A DNA stretch of 41,659 nt from a virus: the IMG/VR virus record IMGVR_UViG_3300025652_000158, positions 1 through 41,659 of that record. One strand, given 5' to 3'. Both the position numbers and the translations under genes were made by a program. The notes below the pieces were generated by a model. That model was not told the origin of the DNA, did not search any database, and saw nothing but the letters and a program-made list of their open reading frames with translations. Below are positions 1,755 to 34,197 of this stretch, in pieces (position 1 is the stretch's first letter; the number at the start of each line of letters is the position of its first letter).

Positions 1755-1912
1755 TAAAACGGGCCTCGCACTTGACGCAGCGACCGAATCGCCAACTTGT
1801 GAATATTACCCATGCCATTTCCTATTCTGGTGTGGTCATCGCTGGGGATTGGGTTGCCGCCCTGCCCCAGCGTGCGTATTGTTAGATAGCGCTAAACGTG
1901 ATGAAAAATGCG
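1755..1912 (-). other. Gap between tail spike and lysis genes; perfect hairpin 1840-1872
   Basis: This 158-base stretch has no convincing gene. It holds a perfect 8-bp inverted repeat, CGCTGGGG at 1840-1847 and CCCCAGCG at 1865-1872, with a GGG/CCC pair inside the 17-nt loop. There is no T-run on either side, so it is not a classical terminator; it may slow RNA decay or attenuate read-through from the tail spike into lysis genes. A 23-codon frame with a CxxC pair (1747-1818, minus) is also present but lacks a well-spaced ribosome site. Confidence 0.5.
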
Positions 1913-4429
1913 TTAAGCCAATCCCGCCAAGGCAGGGTTGTCTACACCGACAGAAAGCACGATGTTTCGCACCCTTACGCGGGCGGTATTAACTACCGTT
2001 GCATCGTTCGCTTGTATCCAAAGACCGATGTGTGGATCGGCTCCGAAAGTGAATGCCGAAAGGTCAATGGACGTGGTGCCGCTATATGGAACGCCGCCCC
2101 CAGCCGGGACAGTGATTGCACCGACTATCTGTGCCGTTTGCTCGTTGAGGCGGCTAGACCCTGATCTATTGAACACAGCCACGCGCATCTGGACAAGCCC
2201 GGCCCCGGCACCGTCTACGTCCTCAAAGTCAGCGTATGCCGTTAGATAGCCGCCCCTGAATCGCGCGGGCAACTTTCCGTAAAGCTGTATTGCTTGGAAT
2301 GCGGCCCCAATGCCGGGGTCAAGAATATATGAGACGCCATTTATGCCCTTGGATACAGTAACAGATCCGACCGCTCCAAAGGTTGTAGTTAGCCAGTCAG
2401 TAGCGAATTGGGTTGTAGCGCTGTAGACCGTTCCGCCATCAATCAATTCTGCATCTGGATCGCGCAATAGGTTGCGGGATGGTCCTGTTGGCCCAGCCGA
2501 ACCGATCCGCCGCAACTGCAAGCCCGTTTTCAGGCTGTAGTACCAAGGGTTGCGGTAACGTCGCACCTCTTCTGCGTCTGCATTCCATGCCGGATAAACT
2601 GCAAAATTCCACTCATCAACTTCTACGGTCACTGGAAGCCCGCCGCCGCCATCACGCCGCGACAGCCAGCGCCATCCCGGAATGCGCGAAACCCAATCAT
2701 TTGTACCGGTAGGGTATCCAGCCGGTAGCGTGTTTGGCCGCAGCAAACCTCGTACCTCTATTTTGTCAGCCTTGAATACAAAGCCGCGCGATAGCGTTGC
2801 CGATGGTGCGCTTGATTGTGCGGTTTCCCCGAACCCAACCAGTCCGCAATTCGCGCCCCATGCCCCGTTATGGATCACTGTTATTGTTCCGAAGATGGGC
2901 TGCGGGCCTTCAATGCGAATAAAGTCGGTACTGCCATTCAAGAGTTTGCAGCCCTCGATATGCAGCGATAGCACCTGCAAGCCAGCGGCGTTGTAAAACG
3001 CAATTGGGGCAACCTCATATGACCCATGCTCAACATTGATCTGGCCAACAACACCAGCGAAGCTAATACCGGCACCAAACCGCGCGCCATAACTCGGCGT
3101 ATAGGTATTGCCATCATTGATGTATACGTTTTGCCAAAAGTTGCCCGTTGGCCCGCCTGCCTCCACACCGACGCAATCAATCCCGCAAAAGCTATGCGCG
3201 CCAACTTCCATGGTGCCGATTGTTACCGAGAACGGCAGGCCAATGATTGCTGTGCCGCAGTTGATGGGGCGTACACCATCAATGCGACTGCCGCGCTGCA
3301 AAGTTAGCGAAACACCCGCGCAATCAAGCCCGACGCGCTCGCCTTCGATCTCGGACCCGGTAAGCGTGTCATAGCCCATATCGAAGTCTAAGAGCGATGA
3401 TGTGCGACCGATTTTCAGGATTGGCTCACCAACAGCAAGCGATGCCGAAAGCCCAAGAATGCGTGACCGGAAACCATCAATCCCGCCGCCAGACTTGGCC
3501 CCGCGAATGGTGCAGTTGTCTTTCGCAATGGTCTGACCGGTGGCATAGGTTGTGCTGAGAAGGTTGCATGATCCGTAATTGTCCAGACACTTTTGGATTG
3601 CCGGTCCCATGTCTGTTGTTCCGGGGGTCGCGTTCTCAGCATAATGATCTGGGTAAACCATAATGCCGGGACGAAGGCCGGGCAGGTCGGCAATAGCAGT
3701 TGCCCCAGATGCACCGATGTAATCCATGCCGCGCGCGCGATATGTGACGCCATCAAGCGGGACAAGGCCACCAGAAATTGCGGAAACCAATGCCGACCGG
3801 GCAGCAAATTCCAGTGGCAGAATACCCTCCGCAACGATGGATGCAGCCGCAGAGGATGCGATGCCAGCCTGCGCCGTTGCGATAGCCGCCTGCGCTGTAG
3901 CCTCCACCGCCGCCGCCGCCGTATCTGCCACATCATCAACGATTGATGCCGCCGCAGCCGTTGCAACGCCTGCCTGTGCCGTTGCCGTTACTGCCGCAGC
4001 GTTGGCACTCGCAATCGACGCCAATAGCTCAGCGTAGGCGCTCCCTGAAATATTAACATTCCAGCTCTGCGTTGACGGGACAGGGTTATTCAGTAGCCAT
4101 GCGATTGTTCTTGTCGATGGGGTTGATGGTATCTGAATATTTGCAAGCTTGGTTTCATGCTCTACAGGCATTCCGCCGTTTGCATCTGTGCGAGTTTCAA
4201 CAAGAACGACGCTATAATACGTTCCTCGCAACCCGGCAGTATTGGCCCACAGCGAGAAAGCGGCAGGCAATACCCCATTGACAAGAGTAACCTCAATCGT
4301 TGGCGGGATTACAACGTCATCGCCCTCTACATCGAAGCCGGAAAGCGTAAACTTCGCAACCGCATATGCAGGCACTACGTCATTTGCAAAAGGAAATCGG
4401 CCCGTCAAAACGGTTTTTGTAAGCGCCAT
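1913..4429 (-). CDS. Tail spike, beta-helix (pectate-lyase-like) receptor protein
   Basis: 838 aa. Residues 1-125 form a beta-rich N-terminal domain, probably for tail attachment. Residues 130-205 are an Ala/Thr repeat of the type A-x-A-x-A-G-x-A, likely a trimeric coiled coil or shaft. Around residue 267 a G-T-T-D-M-G-P-A-I-Q segment marks the usual entry of the pectate-lyase superfamily parallel beta-helix, followed by long Gly/Asn/Ile-rich stretches. The C-terminal 150 residues look like a separate beta-sandwich. Such proteins bind and often cut host surface polysaccharide; catalytic residues cannot be assigned from sequence alone. Confidence 0.85.
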   Translation of the reverse strand: MALTKTVLTGRFPFANDVVPAYAVAKFTLSGFDVEGDDVVIPPTIEVTLVNGVLPAAFSLWANTAGLRGTYYSVVLVETRTDANGGMPVEHETKLANIQIPSTPSTRTIAWLLNNPVPSTQSWNVNISGSAYAELLASIASANAAAVTATAQAGVATAAAASIVDDVADTAAAAVEATAQAAIATAQAGIASSAAASIVAEGILPLEFAARSALVSAISGGLVPLDGVTYRARGMDYIGASGATAIADLPGLRPGIMVYPDHYAENATPGTTDMGPAIQKCLDNYGSCNLLSTTYATGQTIAKDNCTIRGAKSGGGIDGFRSRILGLSASLAVGEPILKIGRTSSLLDFDMGYDTLTGSEIEGERVGLDCAGVSLTLQRGSRIDGVRPINCGTAIIGLPFSVTIGTMEVGAHSFCGIDCVGVEAGGPTGNFWQNVYINDGNTYTPSYGARFGAGISFAGVVGQINVEHGSYEVAPIAFYNAAGLQVLSLHIEGCKLLNGSTDFIRIEGPQPIFGTITVIHNGAWGANCGLVGFGETAQSSAPSATLSRGFVFKADKIEVRGLLRPNTLPAGYPTGTNDWVSRIPGWRWLSRRDGGGGLPVTVEVDEWNFAVYPAWNADAEEVRRYRNPWYYSLKTGLQLRRIGSAGPTGPSRNLLRDPDAELIDGGTVYSATTQFATDWLTTTFGAVGSVTVSKGINGVSYILDPGIGAAFQAIQLYGKLPARFRGGYLTAYADFEDVDGAGAGLVQMRVAVFNRSGSSRLNEQTAQIVGAITVPAGGGVPYSGTTSIDLSAFTFGADPHIGLWIQANDATVVNTARVRVRNIVLSVGVDNPALAGLA

Positions 4430-23767: not shown

Positions 23768-23958
23768 GCCGCTATTTCCTTTTCAACCTTGCAATGATGG
23801 CAAAATACCTTTGCAAGTACATTGCTGAAAATATTAACCACTAAGCACTTCTCTTGGTGCTTTTTGCGTGTTTCGCTGCACCACGGGCATGTATGTCTAT
23901 ACTGCCCAAATTTATCCGGCACGTTAATCTTGTGCCATGCGAGTTCCATGCCTATCAT
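23764..23958 (-). CDS. Free-standing zinc-ribbon protein (primase ZBD-like)
   Basis: 64 aa. Motif C-P-W-C (24-27), a K-C-L-V-V-N segment and C-H-H-C (53-56) give a four-cysteine zinc ribbon like the N-terminal zinc-binding domain of T7-type primases (C-P-x-C ... R-K-K ... C-H-H-C). No TOPRIM or helicase domain is fused to it and none is seen in the rest of the window. It may recognise single-stranded DNA for another enzyme or be a degenerate remnant. Coupled to the methyltransferase gene upstream. Confidence 0.65.
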   Translation of the reverse strand: MIGMELAWHKINVPDKFGQYRHTCPWCSETRKKHQEKCLVVNIFSNVLAKVFCHHCKVEKEIAA

Positions 23959-24950
23959 GATGCCAACTCGAATAAATCACCAGCCGACCGCTCTGCATCC
24001 ATCATGTTCTTGTTGGCCTGCAATGCATATTCAGGCTTCAACTCAAACCCGATATATTTGCGAAACATCTTGACCGCTTGAAATCCAGTGCTGCCAATCC
24101 CGTTGAATGGGTCCATAACAACATCGCCTGGCTTGCTGTAAAGGCGCAAGCAATTTTCAATCGTATCAAGCTGCAATGGGCAAACGTGGCGCTCATCATG
24201 CTGACCTTTTGCCGCGCGATACCCATTCAAAACCTTGCCCTGATTAATATTCATCCATACAGGGCTTGCAAGTTTCTGCCACTCGTAAACATCAAACTCT
24301 GCATGTTTAATCAACTCTGACAACAAATCATCATCAGGCACGCCAGCGCATAGACCCTCGCGCCGCATATGCTCAAGCCAACGGCGCGCGATTGGCAACG
24401 CATCTTGTGAGCCAGGCGCGGCGTGTTCTACACGGTCTGGATTATCCCCATCCTTGCGGAAAAACAGCATATAGTCAGGCATACCTACACGGTTCATACT
24501 GCTGTCTTTGCGGATCTGCTTATAAAGCAACCCTAGCGCTTTGGTCCGGTGCATTTCTACTACAGGGTCTTTCCAGATTGTAGCGCGGCCATGATATATC
24601 AAACCGGCATCAGTATGTGCCTTGATCAAATCACCAGAAAAGTCTTGCAATCCAATCGCACCATCCCTGCCTTTGCGCATTGGCAAGTCCGTGCAATGCA
24701 CGCAAGCGATGCGGCCTGGCTTCATGACGCGGATTAGTGCCTCGGCAAAAAACTTGTATTGGTTGATGAAGTTTTGCCCTGTTCCGGCGTTCCCTAAATC
24801 TCTTTCGCTGTCAGAATACACGAACAAATCACCAAACGGAGGCGAAAATATGGTTAGATCAACGCTATTTTCATTCATCGCGTGCATACCCTCGATGCAG
24901 TCGCTATTGTGGATTGCCCAACCGACACCTTCGTATTCTGGTTGTTTCAT
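23955..24950 (-). CDS. DNA methyltransferase with SPPF motif (N4-cytosine or N6-adenine)
   Basis: 331 aa. The catalytic motif IV is F-S-P-P-F (35-39), related to S/T-P-P-Y of amino-methyltransferases. The SAM-binding motif I, D-P-F-N-G-I-G-S-T-G (280-289), lies after it, the beta-class order. The middle region (about 95-240) is the target recognition part and is not classifiable. There is no restriction endonuclease beside it, so self-protection of phage DNA is the likely purpose. It overlaps the helicase by four bases. Confidence 0.85.
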   Translation of the reverse strand: MKQPEYEGVGWAIHNSDCIEGMHAMNENSVDLTIFSPPFGDLFVYSDSERDLGNAGTGQNFINQYKFFAEALIRVMKPGRIACVHCTDLPMRKGRDGAIGLQDFSGDLIKAHTDAGLIYHGRATIWKDPVVEMHRTKALGLLYKQIRKDSSMNRVGMPDYMLFFRKDGDNPDRVEHAAPGSQDALPIARRWLEHMRREGLCAGVPDDDLLSELIKHAEFDVYEWQKLASPVWMNINQGKVLNGYRAAKGQHDERHVCPLQLDTIENCLRLYSKPGDVVMDPFNGIGSTGFQAVKMFRKYIGFELKPEYALQANKNMMDAERSAGDLFELAS

Positions 24951-26908
24951 GCTTTTTCCTCCGATTTAAGCCACGATGGAAAGGCCAGATCAATCGGGCG
25001 GTCATATTTCACCCTGACGTCCGCTTGATTTTGCGCCCGTTTCATCGCCTCGCTCATGCGGCGCTTCATTTCATCATGCTTTGCAGCCTTGCCGTGGATC
25101 GCCTGCCAGATCGCGCCCTCTGTATCGGCAATCACAATGTGAAGGTGAACCTGACGATCTTGCCCAAAACGCCAAACCCTGCGAACGCCTTGGTAGAATG
25201 ATTCGTAACTGAAGTTAACAGAAGCAAAGACGACGTTTCTGCAATGCTGGAAATTCATCCCAAAACCAACGATCTTCGTCTTGCTTATCAGTATCGGCCT
25301 TTCGCCATCACACCACGCAAGTATCCTGCCTTCCTTATCCTCCGGCTTGTCGGAACCCCTGACAGAGAATGCAAGACTTCCAAAAGCCTTTTCTAGTGCG
25401 TCCTGCTCGTCATTGGTTTCACAATAAATAAGCCATGGGTCATTCGTTATGGCGCTCCAAATACTCGATTGCCGACTTGAGGATTCCGATGTCGTCCCGC
25501 ATTTTCCCAAGGGCTGTGTTACATGCTGTGCATAACAGCTGCCTGACTTTTCCTGACTTATGGCAGTGATCGACGTGCAAGATTTGCCCTCTTTTTTCCC
25601 CGTGCTTTTTTCCACATATTGCACAAGATGATCCCTGATTTTGAAGCATTCTTTCATAGTCATCTTGGGTAATTCCGTACGTGGATTTAAGCCTGCCGTT
25701 TCTCTTTGATGCTGGACACCTTGCGCTTGCGGATGCTCGCATCCTTGCAGCGTATTCTTGGTCACTGGCATACTTAGCCCTTCGGCTTGCGTTATTCCTG
25801 TCCCTACGCTCTTGAGTATTTGCAAATTTTTCTGGATTGGCGATGTAGTATTCTCGCATGTATTTTGCGTTTTCTTCTGGTGATCTTCCTTGTGACTTTC
25901 TGCGTTCACGCTCCGCTTCGTCGTCGTGGTATCTTTGCTTTCTTGCTGCTGCGTATTCTGGCTTCCAAGGCATTCGACATCTCCACTGTCAGTTTCTGCC
26001 AGTTTAGTACGAAAATCTGAAAACACAAGGGAAATGGTTTGTTCGCACCTTTGACGCAATGTCAGCTTCTTTTCCGCGTGAAATGACGTTGCCGACAATT
26101 CAGGTATACGAAACAGGTTTCCTTGCGTGTCTTGCGTCCTGTCGGCTTCAATCGTGTGTAACGTGCGCAGAACATCTGGCAAAATATAGCCGGTATCATC
26201 GCCACCTAGATCACTTGGCAATGTTGCGCACCGGCTCCAGCTTGCCACCCATTGCCAAAAGTCTTCGACAGCGTGGCCCTTCAAACGCCAATCTTGCGAT
26301 GCTGTGGACGTATCGTTGATAAACCACTTAGACAGCATTTCTTGCTGGCGCATCACGCCTAGGAATTCAGCATGGTTGCCCAATTCCATGTGGTCGTTAG
26401 GCGATGGTGTTGCGGTAGCCGCCATTTTGTATGGCGTGGCGTTGAAAGCATCCATCAGCATCATTCGCGTCCGACCCGCAAACGATTTAAGGATGCTGCT
26501 TTCATCAAGGATGATTGCGCCAAATGATCCGGCATTAAGTTTTGGCAACCGCTCATAGTTGGCAACCATAACACCAGCGCCGACTTCATCCTGTTCTTTG
26601 ATCTGGCGCGCATCAATGCCAAACTTAATCCCCTCTCGCACCATCTGACCTGCAACGGCCAACGGCGTAAGGATCAGCGAAGGCTTGCCAGTTTCTTCTG
26701 CACACTGACGGGCAAATTCCAATTCGATGAATGACTTTCCAAGACCAGTATCAAGAAACATGGCTGATTTGCCTTTATTCAAGGCAAATTCTAACGCCGT
26801 GACTTGGTGCGCCTTTGCTTTGTCATTAATTGGCGAGTGATCAAACCCGCTCATTTGCGGCGCAATGGCACGGCTTGATATGAAATTCCGATATTCTGCT
26901 AAACTCAC
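24947..26908 (-). CDS. SNF2-type (superfamily 2) helicase with in-frame insertion
   Basis: 653 aa from GTG 26908 after a strong AAAGGAGAG site. Motif I D-T-G-L-G-K-S (53-59), motif II I-L-D-E-S (133-137) and motif III T-A-T-P-S (165-169) form the first RecA fold; the second has G-F-G-M-N-F and R-R-V-W-R-F-G-Q late. Between about residues 296 and 488 the family pattern breaks: this stretch is Ser/Thr/Gln/Lys-rich low complexity and overlaps the HNH gene in another frame. Family sequence resumes with N-D-P-W-L-I-Y-C. Whether this 193-residue insertion lets the enzyme work is unknown. Role: remodelling or restarting phage replication. Confidence 0.82.
   Translation of the reverse strand: MSLAEYRNFISSRAIAPQMSGFDHSPINDKAKAHQVTALEFALNKGKSAMFLDTGLGKSFIELEFARQCAEETGKPSLILTPLAVAGQMVREGIKFGIDARQIKEQDEVGAGVMVANYERLPKLNAGSFGAIILDESSILKSFAGRTRMMLMDAFNATPYKMAATATPSPNDHMELGNHAEFLGVMRQQEMLSKWFINDTSTASQDWRLKGHAVEDFWQWVASWSRCATLPSDLGGDDTGYILPDVLRTLHTIEADRTQDTQGNLFRIPELSATSFHAEKKLTLRQRCEQTISLVFSDFRTKLAETDSGDVECLGSQNTQQQESKDTTTTKRSVNAESHKEDHQKKTQNTCENTTSPIQKNLQILKSVGTGITQAEGLSMPVTKNTLQGCEHPQAQGVQHQRETAGLNPRTELPKMTMKECFKIRDHLVQYVEKSTGKKEGKSCTSITAISQEKSGSCYAQHVTQPLGKCGTTSESSSRQSSIWSAITNDPWLIYCETNDEQDALEKAFGSLAFSVRGSDKPEDKEGRILAWCDGERPILISKTKIVGFGMNFQHCRNVVFASVNFSYESFYQGVRRVWRFGQDRQVHLHIVIADTEGAIWQAIHGKAAKHDEMKRRMSEAMKRAQNQADVRVKYDRPIDLAFPSWLKSEEKA
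25440..25973 (-). CDS. HNH endonuclease (endonuclease VII-like) inside the helicase gene
   Basis: 177 aa in a different frame from the helicase that encloses it. GGAG lies eight bases before ATG 25973. Residues 1-95 are Arg/Lys/Tyr/Ala-rich, as in many phage HNH proteins. The catalytic part has C-A-I-C-G, then V-D-H-C-H, then L-L-C-T-A-C-N, the layout of recombination endonuclease VII/HNH enzymes with a zinc site. It probably acts as a homing enzyme that copied itself into the helicase. The stop falls exactly where helicase similarity resumes. Too little flanking sequence exists for a group I intron core. Confidence 0.85.
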   Translation of the reverse strand: MPWKPEYAAARKQRYHDDEAERERRKSQGRSPEENAKYMREYYIANPEKFANTQERRDRNNASRRAKYASDQEYAARMRASASARCPASKRNGRLKSTYGITQDDYERMLQNQGSSCAICGKKHGEKRGQILHVDHCHKSGKVRQLLCTACNTALGKMRDDIGILKSAIEYLERHNE

Positions 26909-34122: not shown

Positions 34123-34197
34123 TGGTGGGACCTGCTGGATTCGAACCAGCAACCAGAGCGTTATGAGCGCTTGGCTCTACCGTTGAGCTAAAGTCCC
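34123..34197 (-). tRNA. tRNA with CAT anticodon (Met or Ile2)
   Basis: 75 nt including an encoded CCA. The acceptor stem is GGGACTT/AGGTCCC (one G-U), the D arm GCTC/GAGC with AACGGTA loop, the anticodon loop CTCATAA, and the T arm GCTGG-TTCGAAT-CCAGC. The top pair of the anticodon stem (A/C) is mismatched. Anticodon CAT could be elongator Met, or Ile2 if a lysidine enzyme modifies C34; the sequence alone does not separate them. It probably supplements a codon used more by the phage than the host. Confidence 0.92.

Follow-up and report, generated by a model that had tools for sequence, protein, structure and literature searches.

We conclude, with a probability of roughly 0.82, that the phage genome analyzed here carries a splice-free mobile element in the inter-lobe loop of an SNF2-type helicase gene, namely a homing-type gene for a nuclease of the Endonuclease VII (DHHRN) class. 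The usual view is that mobile genes within conserved genes require an intron or an intein to spare their host. The nested nuclease family appears to persist in phages of very different hosts with neither, and the host protein would carry the translated insert. This reading is based on the nesting, a maintained open host frame, intact catalytic and helicase motifs, presence or absence of the nuclease in close relatives, and a block of sequence that travels with the gene.

The window (the whole stretch of DNA that was analyzed) comprises the 41,659 bases of a virus record. It contains portal, terminase, protease, tape-measure and tail genes and is thus derived from a tailed phage. A tRNA gene is located at 34126-34197 on the minus strand. 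The features of the helicase locus are as follows.

24947-26908, minus strand: SNF2-type helicase gene, 653 codons with a GTG start, one open frame through the nested gene
26024-26908, minus strand: helicase N-lobe, residues 1-295, 87% identical to that of the uninterrupted relative L110
25442-26023, minus strand: insert in the helicase frame, residues about 296-489, rich in Ser, Thr, Gln and Lys, a predicted disordered inter-lobe loop
25241-25441, minus strand: proximal C-lobe of the DEQ...FG..AFSVRG type, which travels together with the nuclease gene
24947-25240, minus strand: distal C-lobe with motif VI (QGVRRVWRFGQ), in frame with the N-lobe
25440-25973, minus strand: nested Endonuclease VII-type (DHHRN/HNH-like) nuclease gene, ATG start, 534 bp, 177 aa, in the -1 frame relative to the helicase
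25455-25694, minus strand: Endonuclease_7 catalytic domain (CxxC ... DHCH ... R ... CxxCN), motif residues invariant in the nested copies
25981-25984, minus strand: GGAG, Shine-Dalgarno-like, 7 nt before the nuclease ATG
25997-26006, minus strand: the 10-mer TAAACTGGCA, upstream of the nuclease start, identical DNA in 7 of 10 loci
23955-24950, minus strand: N4/N6 DNA methyltransferase gene, which adjoins the helicase with or without the insert, with a 4-bp ATGA overlap

The earlier note described the helicase frame as free of stops from 26908 to 24947, and none was found in its 653 codons. The protein has the two motor lobes and conserved motifs of an SNF2-type helicase. Pfam placed Helicase_C at residues 489-582, comparison with PDB profiles matched Sulfolobus Snf2/Rad54 (1z63, E=2.8e-15), and the fold of the model matched SNF2-family motors. 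It had also been noted that helicase residues of about 296-488 are of low complexity and unlike helicases, and that helicase sequence resumes at the HNH stop. The proposed alignment to uninterrupted homologues agreed with both statements: the insert, at residues about 296-489 (nucleotides about 26023-25442), has no counterpart in these homologues, and homology to them returns within one codon of the nuclease stop. The observation that had been named as contrary evidence, the same low-complexity region without a nuclease gene, was made in none of the relatives examined. AlphaFold2 modelling with 29 relatives gave a pLDDT below 50 at residues 310-412 and 437-477 and values of 80-97 over most of the lobes. 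Judging from the sequence, the helicase most likely includes the about 190 additional residues in translated form, as a disordered loop that separates the two motor lobes.

An endonuclease VII-like HNH gene in another frame of the helicase was likewise recovered, since the -1 frame product matched Endonuclease_7 (PF02945) with E=2.6e-27 at residues 94-173 of 177. The residues D135, H136, H138, R144 and N152 and the pairs C117/C120 and C148/C151 are invariant across the nested nucleases. The C-terminal position of the motif places the window nuclease in the endonuclease clade of the DHHRN class and not among the resolvases. Its model was confident (mean 85), and T4 Endonuclease VII and Hpy99I were its nearest solved relatives both by fold and by sequence.

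Searches with the window helicase and the window nuclease, each as query, revealed nine more diverged loci with the same nesting, in the same relative frame and at the same site; the host frame is free of stops in all ten. Seven of the nine are viral (IMG/VR) contigs (L001, L002, L003, L088, L089, L090 and L097, of which L003 is incomplete at its 5' end), one is a Sphingobium MAG (L099) and one is the Gordonia phage Squiddly (L082). The Gordonia phage Malisha (L083) is near-identical to Squiddly in the block and was not counted separately. A complete nuclease ORF lies in the alternate frame of the insert in every nested locus; the nuclease proteins are 46-82% identical to that of the window, and the GC content of their genes ranges from 39 to 67% across the ten loci. 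The nested nuclease is not one recent accident and is spread over very diverged phages. Most of the other loci are metagenomic contigs, but an assembly artefact is unlikely because Squiddly and Malisha are isolate genomes. Annotation has a blind spot here: the nuclease was missed in both Gordonia genomes, where the whole is annotated as one 'DNA helicase'. In L003, L088, L089, L090 and L099, the 3' end of the nuclease ORF runs past the insert into conserved C-lobe codons, so that conserved helicase sequence is itself dual-coded.

Among 158 complete helicases (a redundant set; 101 distinct uninterrupted ones were used in the later comparison), all those with a lobe-to-lobe gap of about 178-198 aa contained the nested gene. 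The remaining ones had an inter-lobe gap of up to about 20 residues, except L079 and L023, and L023 is a weak match to a different helicase. The L079 helicase (ORF from 2171) has a 74-residue gap with no nuclease match. Close nuclease relatives with an MPWKPEYA-type N-terminus were all nested, and the other nuclease matches looked at (L091, Adolin, T7-like Endonuclease VII and others) were distant and free-standing. In the plasmid collection, no helicase match covered 80% of the query. In the Mycobacterium phage Bubbles123 (L180), a short 'HNH endonuclease' gene at 1250-1453 lies directly upstream of an uninterrupted helicase.

The presence and absence of the nuclease among close relatives conflicts with the host phylogeny. 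The Gordonia phage Holliday has an uninterrupted allele whose protein is 85% identical to that of Squiddly. Outside the replaced block, which consists of the insert plus about 20 bp on the left and about 190 bp on the right, the DNA of these two phages is mostly 77-95% identical. Between Squiddly and Malisha, identity is 98-100% for about 960 bp that span the block and 65-93% for most of the remaining gene; short near-identical stretches occur elsewhere. The nearest N-lobe to that of the window belongs to the uninterrupted L110, while the C-lobe differs; similar breaks were found in the pairs L002/L115 and L089/L169. In trees for which the segments and the grouping had been seen in a quick tree beforehand, so that the p-values are a check and not a blind prediction, the nested loci were scattered by the N-lobe (8 changes, at least 7 of them forced; one clade rejected, p=1.6e-7) and by the distal C-lobe (5 changes; one clade rejected, p about 1e-74), and grouped by the proximal C-lobe, a short segment of 67 columns (2 changes, a number as low in 0 of 500 shuffles; one clade not rejected, p=0.12). 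This scatter, together with the proximal grouping, suggests repeated transfer, and the simplest reading is that a block of the nuclease gene and about 200 bp of downstream helicase was repeatedly transferred, as in intronless homing. The shared proximal C-lobe could in part reflect co-adaptation to the insert and not co-conversion. Mantel tests of nuclease against helicase-segment distances did not separate a vertical from a horizontal history. The proximal C-lobe group includes one uninterrupted locus, L159, whose helicase (within the ORF 1768-4326) has a proximal C-lobe type otherwise seen only with a nested nuclease; it represents either a precise loss of the nuclease or a relative of the source.

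The same comparisons bear on the idea that the nested gene is old and vertically inherited, with the nuclease as a domesticated partner of the helicase-methyltransferase pair and not a selfish element. Its wide spread, intact catalytic sites and constant link to a helicase that adjoins a DNA methyltransferase would fit such a history, and nucleases similar to Hpy99I can serve as restriction enzymes with a methylase as partner (PMC6083498). However, the helicase-methyltransferase pair is retained in uninterrupted relatives, so the nuclease is dispensable; nested and uninterrupted loci are interspersed both in the N-lobe tree and in that of the distal C-lobe; and Squiddly and Malisha have shared the block recently. 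Domestication is therefore unlikely.

Splice-free residence is supported by searches for the two known alternatives. Rfam at gathering and relaxed thresholds gave no intron family match, and no ribozyme core was recognized. An intein splicing domain was not found in the window helicase protein, where Pfam shows Helicase_C only, and the insert is modelled as disordered, against such a domain. A self-splicing intron of an unusual type, with the nuclease gene as its cargo and an open host frame that is incidental, is quite improbable. The disjunct distribution fits a mobile intron, and Endonuclease VII-type homing nucleases are known within group I introns of other phages (PMC6083498). Nevertheless, besides the negative Rfam result, the nuclease ORF takes up about 530 of about 580 nt and leaves no space for a separate ribozyme core. 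An intron also needs no open frame, yet the frame is open in 10 of 10 nested loci and is not in twelve free-standing relatives.

To quantify this openness, synonymous codons were permuted within each nuclease gene. The resulting probability of an open host frame, P(open), was 0.0013 in the window, 0.03 in L090 (39% GC) and 0.49 in L089, the highest value; its product over the ten loci was about 3e-11, or about 2e-12 with sampling from host codon usage, products that assume independence of the loci. All 12 free-standing genes of the Endonuclease VII type (GC 23-63%) had 2-14 stops in the equivalent frame, whereas none of the 11 nested ones had any; a search with the nuclease of L091 gave 6 loci that were used as free-standing controls. 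The third frame of the nested copies had 1-15 stops. The stop-prone codons NTA and NTG make up 4-6% of codons in nested nucleases, compared with 7-13% in a set of six free-standing genes and 10-14% in the N-lobes of the hosts. The zero stops in nested as against free-standing genes, together with the permutation product, indicate that the helicase frame through the insert is kept open by selection. On the nucleotide data, what is selected within the insert is chiefly the nuclease, and the constraint from the helicase side would be one of staying open and not of keeping a sequence: between the window and L001 the insert is 81% identical in the nuclease frame versus 45% in the helicase frame, and four-fold-site divergence (0.60 in the nuclease gene versus 0.64 in the C-lobe) gave no sign of selection on the amino acids of the loop.

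Chance, or the composition of the nuclease, could also leave the host frame open, in which case the helicase C-lobe would not be made or would be made separately. P(open) is 0.3-0.5 in the GC-rich loci L089, L082 and L099, so some openness is cheap at high GC, and of the alternative frames of most free-standing genes, the one equivalent to the host frame has fewer stops. Against this stand the joint probability over ten loci and the low values for the window and L090. In addition, the C-lobe after the insert is conserved and in frame with the N-lobe in all loci, and its divergences at the three codon positions (about 0.22/0.12/0.56 between the window and L002) show that it evolves as protein-coding sequence. 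There is no conserved in-frame start before it from which a separate C-lobe could be made. We regard this explanation as very improbable. Bypassing of the insert by ribosomes, as in T4 gene 60, would likewise leave no splicing signature and the loop would never be made, but it would have to cross about 580 nt compared with the about 50 nt of gene 60 and needs no open frame through the insert, although openness is selected, and it is hardly credible.

The preferred reading of a splice-free homing gene implies read-through translation, nuclease expression, cutting and homing, all of which we infer from comparative sequence data. Translation of the nuclease would begin at a start codon of its own, in the -1 frame, and the helicase would be read straight through, which would turn the insert into an unstructured loop of about 190 residues. 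This loop would sit between the folded lobes, where extra sequence is tolerated. Selection on the helicase purges stops from its frame and skews the codons of the nuclease. The nuclease would cut helicase alleles that lack the nuclease gene, and repair of the break would copy the nuclease gene and about 200 bp or more of downstream helicase into the recipient. Squiddly or Malisha, which carry the gene, and Holliday, which does not, form an empty-site pair in cultivable phages. With this pair, the statistical evidence for the open frame and the co-conversion footprint, translation and homing are directly testable.

T4-type free-standing homing genes (seg, mob) use no splicing, and their flanks are co-converted with the gene. 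The nested nuclease resembles them in both respects, but seg and mob genes lie between genes, whereas the window nuclease lies inside a host reading frame. Such genes and intronless homing are among the subjects reviewed in PMC2988022. The DHHRN class of F-CphI is defined by the residues D, H, H, R and N and two CxxC pairs (PMC6083498), and the nested nucleases share these with F-CphI, as well as the C-terminal Endonuclease VII motif. In contrast to the window nuclease, which is inside its presumed target, F-CphI is free-standing beside its target gene and uses an intron against self-cutting (PMC6083498).

Out-of-frame HNH insertions in phage methylase genes, namely the ShiLan domain and Pacc40 gp60, were described by Arsenault et al. 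2025 (PMC11855218). The ShiLan domain resembles the window as an alternate-frame nuclease in a phage gene with a disjunct distribution. It was reported without a detectable ribosome site, and the PhagesDB phages covered all infect Mycobacterium (PMC11855218). The features of its kind were found here as well, namely an open host frame, a complete alternate-frame ORF, no intron or intein signature, and discordant presence and absence. On re-reading, ShiLan gp65 has its nuclease in the same relative frame as the window, with zero stops and P(open)=0.016. However, its host gene is a methylase and its nuclease an HNH_3 protein with zinc fingers, in place of the helicase and Endonuclease_7 of the window, and the two nucleases have no detectable similarity (BLASTP E=1.1), although such homology is no part of what defines the kind. 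In Pacc40 gp60 of a Mycobacterium phage (hidden HNH at L197 3866-4342), the host protein contains a helicase of the same family (N-lobe profile 2.4e-60), with the hidden ORF in the same relative frame. Its insertion point, which separates the PSDI and GYDLP motifs, lies about 55 profile positions farther upstream and not between the lobes; helicase and methylase are one protein; and by the tests made the hidden nuclease is unrelated to that of the window. The main text of PMC11855218 does not mention Gordonia, Squiddly or SNF2, and its two mentions of 'helicase' concern an archaeal helicase intein and Pacc40.

The Endonuclease VII-type nested nuclease family is thus an addition to the kind described in 2025, as a third, unrelated and far wider family. 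The earlier note had proposed a homing gene that keeps its host frame open by dual coding as a third solution besides intron and intein; this solution is well supported by the comparative data, but the principle is not new (PMC11855218). It is conceivable, at slightly less than even odds, that dual coding without splicing is a general third way of life for homing genes, next to introns and inteins. Taken as a whole, this proposal would comprise three or more nuclease families with no relation to one another (Endonuclease VII type in the helicases, HNH_3 in ShiLan and another in Pacc40), all in the same relative frame, with the host reading the nuclease codon positions 2-3-1, host selection that shapes the nuclease codons, and annotation that misses such genes. 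It further holds that, in the helicase family, co-conversion may necessarily extend over the stretch that separates a downstream cut site from the point of insertion, which would change the target in the invaded allele.

The ribosome site that had been noted for the nuclease corresponds to the GGAG before its ATG. A Shine-Dalgarno-like GGAG or GAGGA is found in the window, L001, L002, L003 and L089. In L082, L090, L097 and L099, which have none, TAAACT (TAAGCT in L099) ends 6 nt before the start codon. TAAACTGGCA is present in the window, L001, L003, L082, L083, L089, L090 and L097, and the preceding host amino acid varies. Loci with 33-36 nt from the start of TAAACTGGCA to the ATG have a Shine-Dalgarno sequence, and those with the motif adjacent to the start do not; L088 lacks the motif and does not fit clearly into either group. 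Given the amino acids, the joint probability of the TAAACTGGCA codons is about 3e-18 under independence, a figure that overstates the case because the motif was noticed after viewing the sequences. A role of TAAACTGGCA at the DNA or RNA level is likely from this conservation. A -10 box could explain the split in spacing and Shine-Dalgarno sequences, but a promoter is not claimed; a strict sigma-70 scan found none near the nuclease start. TAAACTGGCA was also considered as a homing site but not upheld as one, since most leaders have their best match at another place in the majority of relatives. Near-matches occur at the uninterrupted insertion site. AACTGGCA is also present in helicase motif V of many uninterrupted relatives, where it codes for NWQH, and the nested alleles mostly have NFQH.
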